NCBI RefSeq assembly: GCF_023148685.1
Contig: NZ_JAHXNL010000005.1
Coordinates: 1-64,000, forward strand
Length of the DNA: 64,000 nucleotides
DNA from: Georgenia sp. EYE_87
Lineage (GTDB): Bacteria > Actinomycetota > Actinomycetes > Actinomycetales > Actinomycetaceae
Direction of reading: 5' to 3'
The notes below the pieces were generated by a model that did no database searches, was not told the origin of the DNA, and saw nothing but the letters and a program-made list of their open reading frames with translations. Both the position numbers and the translations under genes were made by a program. Positions 12,352-19,790 of this stretch are shown here, piece by piece (within the stretch, counting starts at the first letter, position 1; every line of letters starts with the position of its first letter).

Positions 12352-12717
12352 GCGGTGATCCTTCTGCTGGGTCCCGCCGGAGTTTCGGACCGGACGGGGA
12401 CGTCGGTGAATGTGCCGAGCGTACCGCCGGTCGGTGACACGGCTCACAGAAACGCTGACGCCACGTTCAGGCCCGCGGGAGCTCAGTGGTGGTGCTGCGC
12501 GATGCCCCCTCGAACCGGGCACCCCCGGCGGCTGCACGCGCCGACACCGAGCGTGGTTGCCGGAACCTTCCGTCCGCCGTCGCGCCCGCTCCTGCCGCTC
12601 CCTCGCCGGGGCGGATCCGCGGAAGGTTCGGGGAAGGACCGGTGTTCTACCTTCGTCGAGCCGCCGACGGTGGCGGCAGCCGCATCGACGCGGTGGACGA
12701 GCATGGAGGCACCAAGG
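12352..12717. other. divergent region upstream of subtilase and small SARP-target gene
   Basis: This gap of 366 bases holds the subtilase promoter (not identified) and, at 12621-12653, a SARP-type promoter pointing right. A single inverted GGAAGGTTCCGG around 12570 lacks the 11-bp partner repeat. No other gene is apparent. Confidence 0.5.
12621..12653 (+). promoter_or_regulatory. SARP-type operator-promoter 1
   Basis: Two direct repeats, GGAAGGTTCGG (12621-12631) and GGAAGGACCGG (12632-12642), have an 11-bp period. TACCTT (12648-12653) as -10 lies 16 bases after the second repeat begins. SARP/BTAD activators bind heptamers spaced 11 bp apart just upstream of the -10 element. The same layout recurs at two other promoters of this block. 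Confidence 0.7.
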
Positions 12718-12969
12718 ATGGGACCCGAGCTGCTGGTCGCGGCCGAGCTGTCGAACCGGGCGATGGCGCACGAGTTCGTCGGCTACCCGGAGGACGTGGC
12801 CTTCGCGCTGCGGCGCGAGCGTGAGGACAGAGCGGACCGGCGCCTGCGCCGTCGGGAGGGTGCGCCTCGAGACGCGGACGGTGCCGCCGGGCGGCTCAGG
12901 CGATTCGCGGTTCGCCGGCTGCGCCGTGGCGCAGGCGACGTGCGTCCCGTTCCTGGCCTGCCAGCGTGA
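12718..12969 (+). CDS. small hypothetical protein, putative SARP target
   Basis: An 83-residue protein of unknown function. The first half, MGPELLVAAELSNRAMAHEF then GYPEDVAFALRRERED, looks like a natural helical sequence, while the second half is Arg-rich low complexity. A GGAGG seven bases before the ATG and the SARP-type promoter 65 bases upstream support a real gene. Its last 74 bases lie antisense to the 3-prime end of the SARP gene. An in-frame ATG five codons upstream lacks the ribosome site. No family is recognised. Confidence 0.5.
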   Translation: MGPELLVAAELSNRAMAHEFVGYPEDVAFALRREREDRADRRLRRREGAPRDADGAAGRLRRFAVRRLRRGAGDVRPVPGLPA

Positions 12970-15900
12970 ACATGTCGGCCGCGCGGGCGCGCAGTCCCGC
13001 GGCGGCCGCCCTGTCGCCCTCGGCGGCGACCAGGTGCGCGCGGGCCTCCAGCACGGCGGCGTCCCAGCCGATGCTGTGCCAGCGTGCCGCCGACAGCTCC
13101 GCGGCCTCGAGGTGGCGCCGGGCGGCCGGGAGGTCCCCGGCGTCGGCGTAGGCCCGGGCGGCCGGCAGGTCGAGCATGATCGAGCAGAAGAAGCAGTGGT
13201 CGTCCGCCCCCATGGCGGCCACGGCCTCCTCGGCGACCGCCACCTGGCTGTCGCCGGCGGCGAGCTCGATCTGGGTCCCGTAGATCGGCGGCAGCAGGCA
13301 GCGGGCCATGTGCGACCAGCGCGCCAGCGGGAGCGACCGCGCGAGCAGCCGACGCGCGGCGGCGCGGTCGCCGGTGAGCATGCGGACCTCGGCGAGCCGC
13401 TGGAGCGAGTGGGACTCTCCCACGAGCGAGCCGATGCCGTGGTGGAGCTCGACGGCCTCGGTCAGCCGCCGCTCGGCGGCCTCGAGGTTCCCCTGGAGCA
13501 GGGCCGCCTCCCCGCCGAGCGTGGCGGCGAAGGCGGCGGCGCGACGCACCCCGGACCTCTCGGCCGACTCTCGCAGCGAGTCCGCGAGCGCGATGACCTC
13601 CTCGTACGGCGTCGGTCCGTACAGGACGTACTCAGCCACGCACAGGTGGGAGTCGAAGATCCCCGTGACCAGCTGCGGCCGCTCTGCCCCGCGGCGCAGC
13701 TCGGCGTGCAGACGGTGGAAGAACTCCCCGTCGTAGTGCGCGAGGAGCGCCTCGAACGCCACCAGGTCGAACGCCGCGGTGGGTGAGCCAGGGGCCAGCA
13801 GGATCCGGCGTTTGGCGAGCTCGGCGTCCTGGCGGGCCGCGTCGAGCTCGCCGGAGAAGAGGTGGACGTGCGCGCGGGCGATGAGAAGCTCGGCGTCGGC
13901 CCGCTGGTCGCGCCCGTCGACCTCGAGGCCCTCCAGCGCGAGCGCCGCCGTCTCGAGGTCGCCGCCGACCATCGCGGCCTTGGACAGGTTGGTGCGGAGC
14001 TCGCGCACCGCCGCCGGGTCGGTCGCGTGGGCCAGGGCCTCGCGGTGCGCGTCGACGGCGTCCGGGTGCCCGGCAGCGCTGAGCAGCGCCGCCCGCAGGG
14101 CGAGCAGCTTCGCCCGGTCCTGCCCCGTGGCAGCGGCGCGCACCCGGTCGAGGAGGGCGAGCGCGTCGCGGTACGCGCCGAGCGCCGCCCGGGTCTCGGC
14201 GGCACGCAGCGCCCAGGGCACCGCCTGCTCCGCGCGACCGGCCTCGATGAGGTGGTGCGCGACGCGGGCGGGCGAGCCGCCCGTGGCCTCGATCGCCCGG
14301 GCGGCGCGCAGCTGCACGGCCCGGTACGCGGGGCCGTCGAGACGGGCGCGCAGGCGATCCCGCAGCAGAGCGTGCCGGAAGGCCAGCCCGGTGGCGGTGC
14401 GCACGAGCAGCCCGTGCGCGACCCCGGCCCGGACGGCCGCGCTGACGCCGTCGTCGTCCAGGCCGGCCACGGCGGCCAGCTCGTCGGTGTCGAACTCGGT
14501 GCCGAGGACCGCCGCGCAGGCCAGCGTGTCGAGCACGGTGGCGGGCACGCCGCGCGGCTCGAGGATCGCGCGCCACGGGTCGCTCTCCCCCCGGGCGGCG
14601 GCGCGCGCGGTCTCGACCAGGGCGAACGGCACGCCGTCGCCCGTCTCGACCAGAGCGTCCGCGAGTGCGGGGTCGTCCACGTGCTGGCGCACCAGGGTCA
14701 GCGAGGCTGCACGGGACAGGGGCCGCAGGTCCAGCGTGGTGGCCTGGTCCCGGGCGAGCAGGGCGGCGCGCATCTGCGCGAGCGCCGGCGGGGGCGCGCT
14801 GCCGTGGGCGACGGCGATGAGCACCTTCTCCCCCGCCGTCGCGCGGGCGAGCTGGTGCAGCAGTCGCAAGCTGGCGACGTCGGCCTCGTCGGCCTCGTCG
14901 ATCGTCAGCACCGCACCGTTGCCGGCGCCGGCGAGCCGCAGCAGCTCGACGGCGGCCACGTACAGGCGCTGGTGCCCGCCGGCGCCGTCCCACTGCTGCT
15001 GCCGACCGGACATGGCTCGCTCGATCTCGTCGCGCAACGGGTCCGGCAGCCCGTCGAGGAGCCCGGGATGGTGCCGGCACACGGCGGAGAGCGCCTCGAG
15101 CACCGGGGCGTAGGGCCAGTCCGCCGCGGTCCGAGCCGCCAGGCCGGTGCCCACCCGCATGCCGCGGGCCGCCGCCCCGCGCTCGAGCCGGACCAACGTC
15201 GCCGACTTGCCGATCCCGGGCGGGCCCGAGACGAAGAGCACCTGCCCACGACCGCGCTGGACCGCATCCAGCAGCCGGTCCAGCCGGGCCAGCTCCTGCT
15301 CCCGTCCCACCAGGTCGGGGTCCTTGGCCGGGCCGACGGCGGAGCCGCGGAACATCGCGAGGGCCTTCTCCCGCAGGGCGAGCGCCCTCGGGCCCGGCGC
15401 CGCTCCGAGCTCGCGACGCAGGGCTCGCTCGAGCCGCTCGAACTGGCGCAGGGCCGCCGCCGCGTCGCCGGCCCGGAGCGCGTCCACGGCGAGATGGAGG
15501 TGGGCGTCCTCGTCGGCGGGGTCGGCGTCGACCACGGCGGCCCAGCGCCGGGCGGCACGCAGCAGGTCGAGACGCAGGGTGCGCAGCCGCTCACGAGGCT
15601 CCTCGGCCCACTCCTCGTAGAGCTCCTCCGGCAGCAGGTCACCGGCGTAGAGCTCGGCGGCACCTCCGCAGGCGTCAGGGTCCCCCAGGGACAGCGCGTC
15701 GGTGGCGGCGTGCTCGAACGTCTCGGCGTCGACGGCCAGGTCGGCGCCGGGCCACAGCTCGACGAGGTCGTCGTGCAGGACCACCGAGTCGGGACTGCCC
15801 AGGCCGCGCCGCGCGTAGTGCGCCGCCTTGTGCAGCCGCGGCGCGGCGGAGGCGACGTCCGCGTCGGGCCACAGCGCGTCCATGACCTGCTCGCGGTGGA

Positions 15901-16057
15901 GGCGGTGGCCGGGGGTCAGGGCGAGGAGCTGCACGAGGTGCGCGGCGGGCCGGCGGGACCAGGAGGCGCGGGGCACCTGCTCCCCGTCCACCTCGACCGA
16001 GAAGCCACCGAGCAGCGCGATCCTGACGCCCACCGTCACCTCGATTCGCACCTGCAT
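12896..16057 (-). CDS. SARP/BTAD transcriptional regulator with AAA ATPase and TPR region
   Basis: A 1053-residue regulator of the large AfsR-like class. An OmpR-type winged helix lies at about 10-105 (LLGGFSVEVDGEQVP, REQVMDALWPDAD), the BTAD domain at about 107-235, and a STAND/AAA module follows with Walker A GPPGIGKSA at 278-286. The remainder is TPR-like helical repeats. Such proteins bind direct repeats and recruit RNA polymerase, with the ATPase gating activity. It is the last gene of the minus-strand operon starting at the OsmC gene, 62 bases after the flavoprotein, so it probably autoactivates. The first ATG has no clear ribosome site; V9 could be an alternative start. Confidence 0.9.
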   Translation of the reverse strand: MQVRIEVTVGVRIALLGGFSVEVDGEQVPRASWSRRPAAHLVQLLALTPGHRLHREQVMDALWPDADVASAAPRLHKAAHYARRGLGSPDSVVLHDDLVELWPGADLAVDAETFEHAATDALSLGDPDACGGAAELYAGDLLPEELYEEWAEEPRERLRTLRLDLLRAARRWAAVVDADPADEDAHLHLAVDALRAGDAAAALRQFERLERALRRELGAAPGPRALALREKALAMFRGSAVGPAKDPDLVGREQELARLDRLLDAVQRGRGQVLFVSGPPGIGKSATLVRLERGAAARGMRVGTGLAARTAADWPYAPVLEALSAVCRHHPGLLDGLPDPLRDEIERAMSGRQQQWDGAGGHQRLYVAAVELLRLAGAGNGAVLTIDEADEADVASLRLLHQLARATAGEKVLIAVAHGSAPPPALAQMRAALLARDQATTLDLRPLSRAASLTLVRQHVDDPALADALVETGDGVPFALVETARAAARGESDPWRAILEPRGVPATVLDTLACAAVLGTEFDTDELAAVAGLDDDGVSAAVRAGVAHGLLVRTATGLAFRHALLRDRLRARLDGPAYRAVQLRAARAIEATGGSPARVAHHLIEAGRAEQAVPWALRAAETRAALGAYRDALALLDRVRAAATGQDRAKLLALRAALLSAAGHPDAVDAHREALAHATDPAAVRELRTNLSKAAMVGGDLETAALALEGLEVDGRDQRADAELLIARAHVHLFSGELDAARQDAELAKRRILLAPGSPTAAFDLVAFEALLAHYDGEFFHRLHAELRRGAERPQLVTGIFDSHLCVAEYVLYGPTPYEEVIALADSLRESAERSGVRRAAAFAATLGGEAALLQGNLEAAERRLTEAVELHHGIGSLVGESHSLQRLAEVRMLTGDRAAARRLLARSLPLARWSHMARCLLPPIYGTQIELAAGDSQVAVAEEAVAAMGADDHCFFCSIMLDLPAARAYADAGDLPAARRHLEAAELSAARWHSIGWDAAVLEARAHLVAAEGDRAAAAGLRARAADMFTLAGQERDARRLRHGAAGEPRIA

Positions 16058-16119
16058 GCTACGTCGAGGGCGACGGGGTCAGGAAGAGGAGGCCGGTCTG
16101 CCGGCGCCGGGCCGGACCG

Positions 16120-17331
16120 TCACACCGCGGCACCGTCGAGGGCGAGCAGCGCGTCGATCTCGTCGGCCATCGCCGCCGCCAGCCCCCGGAGCAACCCCTG
16201 GACCTCCTGCAGGTCCCACCGGAATCCCGCCAGCGGCTCCGTGGCCTCGAGGATCGGAAGGGTGAGTCGGTCGCGGGCCATCTCGTACGCCGCCAGCGAC
16301 TCCCGCTGCTCCGCGCCCGGTCCGGGCGCGGCCAGCACCGCGCGGGCGAGCAGCTCGGCGTCCCGCAGCGCGTCGGTCATGCCGTGGGTGCTGATCGGGT
16401 CCTTCCAGGCACCGGCGTCGCCCACCAGCGCCCAGCCCGGCCCGGCGGCGGACCGCAGGAAGCCGGGAACGCCGCGGGTGACCCTGAGCCGGCCGACGAC
16501 GGGCAGCCCGGCGACCCGGTCGGCGAGTGCCGGCGGCAGCGGGGTCCCGGCCCACGGGTCGGCGCCGGGCGGCGTCCCCGCCCGCGCGCCCCGACGCGCG
16601 GTCGCGGCGCCGGCGTCGGCGGAGGCGTCGGTGTCGGCGGAGGCGTCGGCGGCTGCCGCGGCGTCCGCCGAGGCGGCGAACACGCAGGTGAGGCCGTCGT
16701 TGGTGGGGATGAGGCCACCCCCGCAGCCCTCGTCGTAGTACCACTCGTACCCAGCGGCCGGCACCGCGACGTACCCGTAGGTGCAGCGGGCCACGGCGCG
16801 TCCCTGCCACCGCACCGCGGCGCCGACCTCGGCCGCCACCAGCGACCGCAGCCCGTCGGCGCCCACCACCAGCGGCGCGTGCTCATCCCGGACCCCGTCG
16901 CGGCGGCGCACGCGCACGCCGGTGACGGCGCCGTCCGCCCCGCGCAGCAGCGAGGTGACGGTGGCGCCGTGCTCCACCCGCGCCCCCGCGGCCACGGCGG
17001 TGCGCGACAGCAGGGCGTCGAGGAAGGTGCGGCGCGGCGCGTACAGGGCCTCGACCCCGGCGCCCGGTCGCAGCGTGACGGTGGTCGCGTCGCCGCCGTA
17101 GTGGAACACCACCCGGTGCACCGGCGGCACACCCGCGGCGGCCACGGCGTCGAGCAGACCCCAGCGGCTCAGCTGCAGCACACCGGCGCGCATGAGCGCG
17201 TGGGTGGAGAGGGTGTCGCTGCCCAGCCGGGTCCGCTCGAGGCACAGCACCCGCATGCCCGCGCGTGCCAGCAGCATGGCGGTGGCCGCGCCGGCGACCC
17301 GGCCCCCGACCACGATCACGTCCCACCTCAT
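16120..17331 (-). CDS. FAD-dependent monooxygenase-like oxidoreductase
   Basis: A 403-residue group A flavoprotein of the geranylgeranyl reductase/PHBH type. It has the dinucleotide fold GGRVAGAATAMLLARAG from residue 9, the GADG motif (LVVGADGLRS) and the late GD motif LVGDAGAWKDPISTHG. Between the last two, around residues 215-245, sits an Ala/Asp/Ser tract (ADASADTDASAD) absent from typical family members. It overlaps the upstream flavoprotein gene by four bases. The substrate is unknown; placement in the SARP operon suggests hydroxylation or reduction of a hydrophobic metabolite. Confidence 0.85.
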   Translation of the reverse strand: MRWDVIVVGGRVAGAATAMLLARAGMRVLCLERTRLGSDTLSTHALMRAGVLQLSRWGLLDAVAAAGVPPVHRVVFHYGGDATTVTLRPGAGVEALYAPRRTFLDALLSRTAVAAGARVEHGATVTSLLRGADGAVTGVRVRRRDGVRDEHAPLVVGADGLRSLVAAEVGAAVRWQGRAVARCTYGYVAVPAAGYEWYYDEGCGGGLIPTNDGLTCVFAASADAAAAADASADTDASADAGAATARRGARAGTPPGADPWAGTPLPPALADRVAGLPVVGRLRVTRGVPGFLRSAAGPGWALVGDAGAWKDPISTHGMTDALRDAELLARAVLAAPGPGAEQRESLAAYEMARDRLTLPILEATEPLAGFRWDLQEVQGLLRGLAAAMADEIDALLALDGAAV

Positions 17332-18587
17332 TGCTGCGCCCCCACCAGCGCGTCGGCACCGACGAGCACCCGGTGCCGGGCCGCGATGTCGGCCGTGATG
17401 ATCGCGGCGTCGTGGCGCACCCCGCCGAGGAGAGCCGAGCTGCGTCGGGTCTGCCAGGCGGCGCCCACCACGTACAGGCCTGGGACGTCCGTGCGCCCGG
17501 CGTCGTGGACCACGTCACCGTCCGCGTCGAGCACCGGCAGGTGCAGCCACGGGTGCGCGCGCCGGTAGCCGGTGGCCCACACGACCGTGGAGATGCCGCG
17601 GGCACGCAGGTCGAGCCGGACGGGGGCATCCTCCGTGCGGGCGGGCCGGACCAGGTCCTCGCTGGCAGGCTCCGCGCCGAGACGGTCGGCGACGGCGTCG
17701 ATCCGGCCCAGGAGCCGACGCAGGCGGTGGTCGGCCAGCGCCGTCGTGGACGGCAGGTCCGGCGCGAAGGTGACCCGGTCGCCGTCGGCCGCGGTCAGAC
17801 GCCCGGCGAGGACGACGCCGCCGGCCTGGAGGCTCGCCAGGTCGAGCTCGCGCACCTCGTCCCGGCCCACGAGCTGCATCGACGGCTCGTGCGGCGGGTC
17901 GGCCGGATCGGGCAGCGAGGCCCGTGGCCGGTCCATGGCTCCCGTCCGGCTCAGCCAGTCGACGATGTCGCGGCCTCGGTAGCGCCGCGGCACCCGGGTG
18001 TGGTGGCCCACCGCCAGGACGACCTCACGCCCGGCGCCGGCCAGCTCGTCGGCGATCTGGGCCCCGGAGGCCGAGGCACCGACGACGAGCACCCCGCCGT
18101 GCGGCAGGTCGCCCGGCCGGCGGTAGTCGTCGGCGGCCACCTGCAGCACCCGGTCGCCGAGCCCCGCCGCCACGTCGGGCACGTTCGGGAACGCGTTGTG
18201 CCCGGTGGCCAGGACCACCTCGTCGGCCCGCCAGCAGCCGGTCGTGGTGCTCACCACGAAGTGCCCGAGGCCGCCGGTGACGCTGAGCACCTCGGTGTGC
18301 TCGGCCACCGGCGCCGCGAAGGAGCTGGCGTAGTCCTCGAGGTACCCGATCACCTCGGACCGGCTCATGTAGCCGTGGGGGTCGGCTCCGGCCCACCGCC
18401 AGTGGGGCAGGTGGCTGAACCACCGCGGCGTCAGCAGGGTGAGGCTGTCCCAGCCGCGGGTGCGCCACCGATGGGCGACCTCACCGCGCTCGAGGACCAC
18501 GTGGTCGATGGCGAGCTCGGTGAGCAGGCGGCTGACGGCCAGCCCGGCCTGCCCTCCGCCGATGACGACGACCGTGGTCGTCAGCAT
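17328..18587 (-). CDS. flavin-containing monooxygenase (FMO/CzcO-like)
   Basis: A 419-residue NAD(P)/FAD oxidoreductase. FAD binds through VVVIGGGQAGLAVSR (residues 6-20). The active-site approach is HRWRTRGWDSLTLLTP, typical of the CzcO/YUCCA-like group. The second nucleotide site VVGASASGAQIADEL binds NADPH. The ATG[D/H] strand (LATGHNAFP) and late WATGYRRAHPWL fit as well. It is translationally coupled to the downstream flavoprotein by a 4-base overlap and follows the OsmC gene by 64 bases. Likely activities are Baeyer-Villiger or heteroatom oxygenation; no substrate can be named. Confidence 0.88.
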   Translation of the reverse strand: MLTTTVVVIGGGQAGLAVSRLLTELAIDHVVLERGEVAHRWRTRGWDSLTLLTPRWFSHLPHWRWAGADPHGYMSRSEVIGYLEDYASSFAAPVAEHTEVLSVTGGLGHFVVSTTTGCWRADEVVLATGHNAFPNVPDVAAGLGDRVLQVAADDYRRPGDLPHGGVLVVGASASGAQIADELAGAGREVVLAVGHHTRVPRRYRGRDIVDWLSRTGAMDRPRASLPDPADPPHEPSMQLVGRDEVRELDLASLQAGGVVLAGRLTAADGDRVTFAPDLPSTTALADHRLRRLLGRIDAVADRLGAEPASEDLVRPARTEDAPVRLDLRARGISTVVWATGYRRAHPWLHLPVLDADGDVVHDAGRTDVPGLYVVGAAWQTRRSSALLGGVRHDAAIITADIAARHRVLVGADALVGAQQ

Positions 18588-18651
18588 GTTCTCTCCTGTC
18601 GTGGCACGGGCGTGGCGACGCCGCCACGCCCGCGCGGGGTCGGTCGGCCGG

Positions 18652-19236
18652 TCAGGCAGCTTCGTGGGCGTCGACGTCGACGACGACGTCAGTGCCGTTG
18701 GTGAGCACGTCGTAGACCGCGGAGCGGTCCTGCGAGCGGCGCACGACGGCCTCGAGCTGTTCGGCGGAGGCGTCGCCCTCGATCTCGAAGTGCACGCGGA
18801 TCTGCCGGTAGCCGTTCCTGACCCCGGTGTCGATACCGAGCATGCCGAGGAGGCTGATGTCGCCCTCGACGGTCGACGCCACCCGGCGCAGCTCGATCCC
18901 GCGCGCGGACGCGATGTTCGCGATCCCGTGGGTCAGGCACGCCGCGATGGCGTGCAGGAGGTACTCCACGGCGGTCGGCCCGTTGTCCTGCCCCACGAGC
19001 ACCGCGGGGTGGTCAGCGTCGATCACGAAGCCCGCGGTCCGGGTGGCGTCCTCCTGGCCGGCGCCGTAGAAGTTCTGGATCGTGCTGCGGTTGTGGGTGC
19101 CGCTGACCCACTCGTTGCGGGCCCGGAACTGGAACTCGGCGAGCTCCTGCTGGTCCCGCACCGCGTCGACGGTGGCGAACAGGACGGGTACGTCGACCCC
19201 GTTCATCGCCGTGCGGTCGTGGCTGGTCGTCGTCAT
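18652..19236 (-). CDS. OsmC-family protein lacking the second cysteine
   Basis: A 194-residue OsmC/Ohr-fold protein. Conserved blocks are NGPTAVEYLLHAIAACLTHG with C100 and GYRQIRVHFEIEGDASAEQLEAVV. OsmC peroxidases use two cysteines. The second normally sits in a C-P-V-Y context, but here the position reads RSAVYDVL, with Ser172 in place of Cys. Classical two-cysteine peroxidase chemistry is therefore unlikely. Many OsmC proteins paired with FMOs share such changes and may bind or hydrolyse a product instead. It is the first gene of the SARP operon. GGAG precedes the ATG. Confidence 0.85.
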   Translation of the reverse strand: MTTTSHDRTAMNGVDVPVLFATVDAVRDQQELAEFQFRARNEWVSGTHNRSTIQNFYGAGQEDATRTAGFVIDADHPAVLVGQDNGPTAVEYLLHAIAACLTHGIANIASARGIELRRVASTVEGDISLLGMLGIDTGVRNGYRQIRVHFEIEGDASAEQLEAVVRRSQDRSAVYDVLTNGTDVVVDVDAHEAA

Positions 19237-19273
19237 GTCGTACTCCTTCGTCGTCGGGTCATGACGGGAGACG

Positions 19274-19310
19274 ACGCTAGGAAGCGGACCTTCCCCCGAC
19301 CTTCCCGGGA
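19274..19310 (-). promoter_or_regulatory. SARP-type operator-promoter 2 (OsmC operon)
   Basis: Read on the minus strand, GGAAGGTCGGG and GGAAGGTCCGC form an 11-bp-period direct repeat (19295-19305 and 19284-19294). They are followed after 15 bases by TAGCGT (19274-19279) as -10. The transcript would start about 30 bases before the OsmC ATG. Arrangement and sequence match site 1. Confidence 0.72.
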
Positions 19311-19332
19311 CGGCCGGGCCGCGGTGCCGACG

Positions 19333-19364
19333 GGAAGGCGCGGGGAAGGCCGGCGGGGCAGGGT
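19333..19364 (+). promoter_or_regulatory. SARP-type operator-promoter 3 (maoC)
   Basis: GGAAGGCGCGG (19333-19343) and GGAAGGCCGGC (19344-19354) repeat with 11-bp period. CAGGGT (19359-19364) lies 15 bases after the second repeat begins. The expected start site falls on the A of the maoC ATG at 19371, implying a leaderless mRNA. It sits back to back with site 2. Confidence 0.68.
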
Positions 19365-19370
19365 GCGGGC

Positions 19371-19790
19371 ATGGAGCTCCACGTGGGCGACAGCGCCCGG
19401 CGCACCCGCACGGTCACCTCGGAGGACATCGAGCTGTTCGCCCGCATGACCGGGGACCGGAACCCGCTGCACACCGACCCGGAGCTCGCCGCGGCGAGCC
19501 GGTTCGGGGGGATCGTCGTGCAGGGCGGGGTCACCTCGGGGCTGCTCAACGCCGTCGTCGCCCAGGACCTGCCCGGGCCGGGGTCGGTCTTCCTCCGCAC
19601 CGACTGGTCCTTCCGGGCGCCGGTGCGGCCCGGGGACACGATCACGGCCGAGGTGGTCGTGACGGCGGTGCGCACCGACAAGCCCGTCACCGAGCTGCGC
19701 ACGAGCATCACCGACGACGCGGGCACCGTGGTCCTGGACGGCACGGCCGTGGTCTGGCGGGATCCCGCCGTCGCCGCGGCCACGTCCTGA
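19371..19790 (+). CDS. MaoC-family (R)-specific enoyl hydratase
   Basis: A 139-residue hot-dog fold protein. The hydratase motif ARMTGDRNPLHTDPELA carries the Asp-His pair (D in TGD, H in LH), followed by RFGGIVVQGGVTSGL. PhaJ-like enzymes hydrate trans-2-enoyl-CoA or a thioester. No ribosome site precedes the ATG, in keeping with a leaderless transcript from the SARP-type promoter. It diverges from the OsmC operon and is likely co-regulated with it, hinting that the pathway handles an acyl or enone substrate. Confidence 0.88.
   Translation: MELHVGDSARRTRTVTSEDIELFARMTGDRNPLHTDPELAAASRFGGIVVQGGVTSGLLNAVVAQDLPGPGSVFLRTDWSFRAPVRPGDTITAEVVVTAVRTDKPVTELRTSITDDAGTVVLDGTAVVWRDPAVAAATS

Follow-up and report, generated by a model that had tools for sequence, protein, structure and literature searches.

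In a stretch of 64,000 nucleotides from Georgenia sp. EYE_87 (contig NZ_JAHXNL010000005.1, positions 1 to 64,000; hereafter the window), a gene block codes for an OsmC-like protein, an FMO-like oxidoreductase, an FAD_binding_3 oxidoreductase (FAD gene) and a SARP activator, divergently from a gene for a MaoC-like hydratase. We estimate at roughly 0.87 the probability that this self-contained SARP acts through paired GGAAGG repeats on its own operon and on the MaoC gene, and possibly on a small open reading frame (ORF) as well. The SARP family is known for switching on antibiotic genes; here the regulator apparently controls itself and a small set of redox enzymes. Its mechanism would be the usual one of SARPs, whereas its operator sequence and its targets, unusually well predicted by genome comparison, were not found in the literature searched. 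Such comparison establishes the operator together with its 11-bp period, its spacing from the -10 element and its links to the SARP and the enzymes; direct binding, activation rather than repression, autoactivation and the switch proposed below are what we infer.

The pair GGAAGG-N5-GGAAGG is present without mismatch at three places in the window (Table 1), and a pattern scan found no other exact copy in the whole genome of 4.35 Mb. The initial annotation had placed GGAAGG repeats 11 bp apart at exactly three promoter positions, each followed by a -10-like hexamer (TACCTT, TAGCGT and CAGGGT), and both statements agree with what we found. The window contains 41 single GGAAGG hexamers (both strands), so that only about 0.013 pairs at distance 11 would be expected, and order-2 Markov simulations (n = 60) gave a mean of 0.017 exact pairs per window with a maximum of 1. 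Allowing up to one mismatch raises the genome-wide count to 25, i.e., the 3 exact pairs and 22 with one mismatch. A shuffle test of the window at up to two mismatches was not significant (7 found vs 5.9 expected), and thus the exact pairs alone stand out. A weak pair with two mismatches, CGACGG-N5-GGAAGG, lies at 12566-12582 on the minus strand, divergent from site 1 and directed towards the subtilase gene.

The geometry of the sites is uniform among the genomes compared. The pooled SARP loci (184 kb) contain 11 exact GGAAGG pairs with a distance of 11, whereas no other distance between 7 and 40 is represented more than twice. We collected 23 sites by gene context (before OsmC, FMO, MaoC, azlC, a VOC gene or SARP, or just past SARP), including the small-ORF site of the window and a divergent site in G437; a TAnnnT or CAnnnT hexamer starts 9 bases past the second GGAAGG (offset 9) in 19 of these, one site each has it at 10 and 18, and two sites have none. 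A reading of 27 bare-pattern loci gave the same value, all TAnnnT hexamers in the offset range 5 to 13 being at 9. Published SARP sites are direct repeats 11 or 22 bp apart whose 3' repeat lies 8 bp from the -10 element (PMC10936776, in part). Counted as the heptamer GGAAGGN, the half-site found here leaves 8 bp to the -10 element and matches this rule, so that the SARP geometry first suggested from the window agrees with the published one. Repeat triplets were found in G437 and G606. Those of G437 (L157, 11155-11228) include divergent triplets of GGAAGG-like repeats with an 11-bp period, the rightward one preceding a 38-codon reading frame and a GNAT acetyltransferase gene. Tandem GGAAGGCCCGC units in G474 (C125, 2277-2326; L088) give four overlapping pattern matches and constitute a simple repeat, not a promoter site.

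Matches to the SARP were found in 2 of 151 family genomes at E 1e-60 (its own and G113), and at E 1e-100 the class sample of 394 genomes gave 12. The family sample includes 8 further members of its own genus, all without a match at E 1e-60, which suggests that it was acquired horizontally or lost in the rest of the genus. The OsmC-(FMO)-FAD-SARP block is kept in seven relatives identified by protein searches (G113, G166, G252, G350, G376, G437 and G157; the G166 block is without FMO), and in five of the seven a GGAAGG-type pair with 0 or 1 mismatch precedes the first enzyme gene. It stands before OsmC in G113 (one mismatch), G166, G252 and G376, and in G437 (one mismatch) it lies upstream of a MaoC-OsmC-FMO-FAD-SARP operon. 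In the fragmentary assembly of G157, four degenerate repeats with an 11-bp period were seen by eye before a TAGCGT at the usual -10 position. The initial reading thus withstood the check whether relatives that keep the block are without the repeats: five have the pair, G157 has a degenerate repeat and G350 has a site before azlC only. At locus L133 of G157, on a 4 kb contig, the SARP start is oppositely oriented and in two frames beside a cut FAD gene, possibly a misassembly. Both G252 and G376 have sites before OsmC and before azlC, and azlC and azlD follow the upstream site in G252, G350 and G376 (all g115; identified by Pfam in G376; 63-81% identity in G350 and G252). Plasmid searches returned no SARP or FAD relative and only FMO relatives of under 60% identity, and scanning genome contigs for SARP yielded only one locus, a distant one from which no sites were taken.

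Co-distribution of operator and regulator provides further evidence. The bare 12-base pattern is uninformative because it matches in 58 of 151 family genomes and because its reversed control is identical (GGAAGG-N5-GGAAGG reads the same backwards); we therefore used a longer pattern that includes the -10 element. Of the 394 class genomes, 9 contain GGAAGG-N5-GGAAGG-N9-TANNNT, with 13 matches in total as against 2 for the reversed pattern. Eight of these nine are among the 13 SARP-bearing genomes counted, namely the 12 at E 1e-100 plus G392 (Fisher p = 8.5e-13); the proportion becomes 8/15 when G157 and G437 are added, two genomes with the SARP DNA-binding part that were found via FMO and have no exact pattern match. 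As a second sample, 341 genomes of family f25, 40 of them already met in earlier searches, were searched by DNA pattern. The -10 pattern matched six times in six genomes (two matches for the reversed pattern), and five of the six matches open an operon, before OsmC in G166, G606, G613 and G788 and before FMO in G547. The FAD gene and then SARP follow downstream in all five (the G547 SARP runs off the contig, and the G613 block is without FMO). G166 was known beforehand, and the other four are new operons found from DNA alone.

Loci that have the enzymes and no nearby SARP served as controls. Among 19 FMO relatives (41-48% identical; L138-L156) without SARP in the fetched flanks (up to 1.5 kb), none has a pair at up to one mismatch; three of these loci are second FMO genes of the SARP-bearing genomes G166, G261 and G392. 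Another of the 19, in G432, has OsmC-FMO-FAD together with MaoC and an MFS transporter (MFS_1), the enzyme set lying at L158 4748-9384, and neither SARP nor a pair at up to one mismatch was found in the 16 kb read. The enzyme set thus exists under other control, and the presence of MaoC in G432 suggests that MaoC belongs to it.

The clearest sign of action in trans would be the genus g114, in which enzyme genes carry the site and lie apart from the SARP. In the eight genomes of this genus no OsmC, FMO or FAD match was present in the DNA read around SARP, and in four of them GGAAGG-N5-GGAAGG-N9-TAGCTT stands before FMO (G261, G348 and G474) or before an OsmC-FMO pair (G392). The FMO site and SARP are 1.28 Mb apart on the same contig in G261, and enzyme site and SARP are on different contigs of the draft assemblies of G348, G392 and G474. 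G261 and G348 also have sites upstream of SARP itself, 123 and 210 bases ahead of its first aligned residue, with no -10 element at the usual place. By the same kind of comparison, further SARP targets are likely to be azlCD in g115 and a VOC-family protein of G250, whose gene diverges from SARP and follows a variant site. The same holds for small or apparently secreted proteins of G113, G166, G392, G606 and G613 whose genes follow a site located where SARP ends or shortly beyond; proteins of the secreted-looking kind were noted at L053 (15250-15789; no Pfam match), L168 and L167.

The SARP of the window has a BTAD domain (PF03704; 28.7 bits, cut-off 22.1) and an AAA_16 ATPase domain (81.3 bits, cut-off 32.6). 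The SARP-LAL subclass comprises a SARP part plus an AAA_16 or AAA_22 ATPase domain (PMC12224297, in part), the domain set seen in this protein. Its DNA-binding part gives only a weak match to Trans_reg_C (PF00486; 16.0 bits, E 0.013, below the cut-off of 26.2; no match at E 0.001), and a PDB search with the single sequence returned no match, so that profiles were needed. With profiles, EmbR was the only PDB relative found over the whole DNA-binding part. AlphaFold2 on a 10-sequence alignment of residues 1-250 gave a mean predicted local distance difference test score of 87.6 for the best model and 65-70 for the other four, and the best structural matches of the predicted fold are AfsR with RNA polymerase (8k60 and 8hvr; E 2.2e-8, template modelling score 0.67 vs AfsR) and EmbR. 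The recognition helix is APRLHKAAHYARR, in which P73, R74, L75, H76, K77, H80 and R83 do not vary among 10 aligned proteins, that of the window being one of them. The G437 protein has NB-ARC in place of AAA_16 and matches the window SARP well only over residues 11-296 (45% identity), and its operator is kept despite the swap, which suggests that the operator goes with the DNA-binding part.

In the mechanism that we propose, two SARP molecules would sit side by side on a GGAAGG pair, whose half-sites are separated by one turn of DNA (11 bp) and lie just upstream of a poor -10 element, and would recruit RNA polymerase in the manner known for AfsR. The SARP would thereby activate its own operon (OsmC, FMO, FAD oxidoreductase and SARP) and, divergently, MaoC, and possibly also the small ORF that runs towards its 3' end. 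Release of the DNA-binding part upon a signal may depend on a switch formed by the AAA_16 ATPase and the C-terminal part. Comparison argues well for the autoactivation predicted in the initial annotation, as it does for OsmC, FMO, the FAD gene and MaoC as members of the regulon; the small protein behind site 1, also listed there, did not fare as well and is the weakest link of the regulon.

Several observations weigh against this interpretation. Two of the three sites of the window have -10 elements that are poor or one base off (CAGGGT and TACCTT). G350 has no site before OsmC and a pair only before azlC upstream, and G250 has just a variant site with one mismatch in each half. Around the SARP relatives of G158 and G162, which are 39 and 37% identical, no pair at up to one mismatch was found, nor was there one on the G497 contig, which is short. 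The ninth class genome with the -10 pattern, G302, shows no SARP operon at its match; the site adjoins amidohydrolase-like and GlcG-like genes, and such genes were also seen by eye near the G250 SARP. The sixth match in f25 (G811) precedes a nucleotidyltransferase-like gene without a SARP operon and looks like chance, and extra matches stand before seemingly unrelated genes (by eye), namely one with an FHA domain (G392), one resembling a glycosyltransferase gene (G261) and one resembling a lipoprotein gene (G348). The eight SARP-bearing pattern genomes belong to four genera and so do not count as independent cases, and SARP matches in g114 were accepted at 1e-80, a less strict threshold than the 1e-100 applied elsewhere. 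The 23 collected sites leave out other matches in SARP genomes as well as the later sites of G547, G606, G613 and G788, and three of them were found with a pattern that fixes the -10 offset.

Among alternative explanations, chance or G-rich composition is suggested by the wide occurrence of the bare pattern (58 of 151 family genomes). It was rejected, given that the genome has only three exact sites, all of them in the window, where 0.013 pairs were expected and the simulations gave a mean of 0.017; position and -10 distance are moreover conserved in relatives, the second sample already refutes chance for the OsmC/FMO site, and we regard its probability as negligible. It is also conceivable, and in our assessment very improbable, that the pair serves another regulator (an extracytoplasmic function (ECF) sigma factor, or a SARP encoded elsewhere) and that this SARP merely travels along. 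ECF promoters have a GGAAC -35 element and a CGT -10 element with a spacing of ~16-17. The -10 consensus here often ends in CGT, the degenerate G157 site contains GGGAAC, which resembles such promoters, and the genome itself gave 13 first-look candidates to the SARP query, so that other SARP-like proteins may exist. A sigma factor, however, needs no repeat with an 11-bp period. An ECF promoter was rejected, the distance from hexamer to CGT being 12 or 23 bases. Against both versions of another regulator, the site accompanies this SARP in each of five families (f1, f25, f26, f28 and f35), all 19 FMO loci without a SARP match in the fetched flanks are without the site, and G437 shares just the DNA-binding part of the SARP, yet keeps the site.

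Two further alternatives concern the extent and the nature of the regulon. There is a considerable, though lesser, chance that only the OsmC-operon site, perhaps with that of MaoC, works and that site 1 and the small ORF lie outside the regulon. The -10 element of site 1 is one base off, and its ORF has no family match or detectable homologue and a low third-codon guanine-cytosine (GC) content (0.80). Site 1 is nevertheless exact in a genome with just three exact repeats, and G113, G166, G392, G606 and G613 likewise have sites, mostly with one mismatch, where the SARP gene ends or shortly beyond. The set might alternatively be a non-canonical biosynthetic cluster with one of the flavoproteins as core enzyme instead of a redox-stress module, as would fit the relationship of FAD_binding_3 to flavin halogenases and the transporters that accompany the set in relatives (azlCD in g115 and MFS_1 in G432). 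Predicted biosynthetic clusters contain 82.1% of the small SARPs of Streptomyces, as opposed to only 42.6% of the AAA_16 SARP-LALs, more than half of which lie outside (PMC12224297, in part). At 12 of 25 FMO loci an OsmC-FMO pair has neither the FAD gene nor SARP in its flanks, no core enzyme was found among the 8 proteins scanned, and we consider a biosynthetic cluster unlikely. Control by the SARP of its own operon and of MaoC through the GGAAGG pairs is the interpretation that we favor.

Table 1. Genes, operator sites and -10-like hexamers of the SARP block (positions in the window)
Feature	Position	Strand	Remarks
Operator 1, GGAAGG-N5-GGAAGG	12621..12637	+	exact match; upstream of small ORF
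-10-like TACCTT of site 1	12648..12653	+	starts 10 bases past second hexamer; one base off usual spacing
Small ORF	12718..12969	+	83 amino acids (aa) from ATG 12718, 88 aa from ATG 12703; coding status uncertain
SARP activator	12896..16057	-	1053 aa; winged-helix DNA-binding part, BTAD, AAA_16 ATPase (Pfam, predicted fold)
FAD_binding_3 oxidoreductase	16120..17331	-	geranylgeranyl-reductase/halogenase-like flavoprotein
FMO-like NAD(P)/FAD oxidoreductase	17328..18587	-	related to MSMEG_0569 and ArsO families, below their cut-offs
OsmC-like protein	18652..19236	-	one invariant Cys (C100)
-10-like TAGCGT of OsmC operon	19274..19279	-	starts 9 bases past second hexamer
Operator 2, GGAAGG-N5-GGAAGG	19289..19305	-	exact match; upstream of OsmC-FMO-FAD-SARP operon; kept before OsmC in relatives
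Operator 3, GGAAGG-N5-GGAAGG	19333..19349	+	exact match; upstream of MaoC
-10-like CAGGGT of MaoC	19359..19364	+	starts 9 bases past second hexamer
MaoC-like hydratase	19371..19790	+	probably leaderless transcript; divergent from OsmC operon

The four genes behind operator 2 lie on the minus strand in the order OsmC, FMO, FAD oxidoreductase and SARP, with gaps of 64 and 62 bases and a 4-base overlap of the FAD gene with FMO, so the SARP gene is the last gene of this operon, as had been stated initially. The MaoC ATG lies 6 bases past CAGGGT, and therefore its transcript would probably be leaderless. OsmC/Ohr peroxidases have two conserved cysteines; in 8 aligned OsmC sequences (the window's included) C100 is invariant and the second cysteine is absent, so this OsmC would not be a peroxidase of the classical two-cysteine type. 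With 354.8 bits against TIGR04046 (MSMEG_0569 family flavoprotein), the FMO stays below the curated cut-off, which is 498. In the FAD oxidoreductase gene, positions 16600-16680 include a repetitive stretch rich in Ala, Ser and Asp (ASADTDASADAG). The small ORF is convergent with the SARP gene and overlaps its 3' end; it has no Pfam match, and the third-codon value given above refers to its frame of 99 codons from an upstream GTG. G113 has another convergent site like site 1, and no homology was detectable between the product of its convergent ORF and that of the small ORF. A Pfam scan of 8 proteins (the block and its direct neighbours) recognised SARP, FAD_binding_3, FMO-like, OsmC, MaoC, lipid kinase and subtilase proteins, and no polyketide synthase, nonribosomal peptide synthetase, terpene or other core enzyme among them, in line with the initial description of a set without a biosynthetic core enzyme.

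The operator sequence, its target set and the operon were not found described in the open PubMed Central literature at the level of titles and abstract beginnings. In the literature searched, GGAAGG is not a known motif, as initially supposed, and the nearest heptamer is CGGCAAG of PimR/SanG/PolR (PMC5930380, in part). One non-antibiotic SARP-LAL subfamily gains an operator that predicts targets from DNA alone, checked in a second genome sample, and what non-antibiotic SARPs control becomes directly testable. The natural ATPase swap with the operator kept offers a way to separate the DNA-reading from the signal-sensing part. It may even be, though we think this somewhat improbable, that the DNA-binding part and the GGAAGG operator form a transferable cassette with exchangeable AAA_16/NB-ARC sensors that governs an uncharacterised OsmC-FMO-flavoprotein-MaoC pathway. 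Such a pathway would possibly be a new small biosynthetic or detoxification type without a known core enzyme. The operator also cautions against taking every SARP gene as the sign of an antibiotic cluster; otherwise it points to a pathway type that cluster finders miss.

Among known systems, EmbR of Mycobacterium tuberculosis, which has no ATPase, shares the SARP fold and gives a profile match over the whole DNA-binding part. Unlike the window SARP, EmbR carries an FHA domain (PMC10936776, in part). The SARP-LAL regulators PimR, SanG and PolR are alike in having a SARP part with a LAL-kind ATPase and in using heptamers with 4-bp spacers (PMC5930380, in part; PimR compared by description), and CGGCAAG, their consensus, differs by a single base from CGGGAAG, which several relatives have as their second repeat. 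They act inside antifungal clusters, in contrast to the present SARP, whose gene ends an enzyme operon with no core enzyme in the scanned proteins. AfsR of Streptomyces coelicolor has a DNA-binding fold that the window SARP is predicted to share (8k60 and 8hvr being the best matches), and its afs box consists of two 11-bp direct repeats with the 3' repeat 8 bp from the -10 element (PMC10936776, in part). AfsR likewise acts at poor -10 elements such as CACTGT, and CACTGT is also found before azlC in G376. The AfsR repeat CGTT(T/C)ATCGNN (PMC10972967, in part) nevertheless differs from GGAAGG, and its base-reading residues T88 and R92 appear, via the EmbR alignment, to correspond to K77 and Y81 here, Y81 being F in two homologues. 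AfsR has a NOD where the window SARP has an AAA_16 ATPase, and the predicted targets here are redox enzymes.

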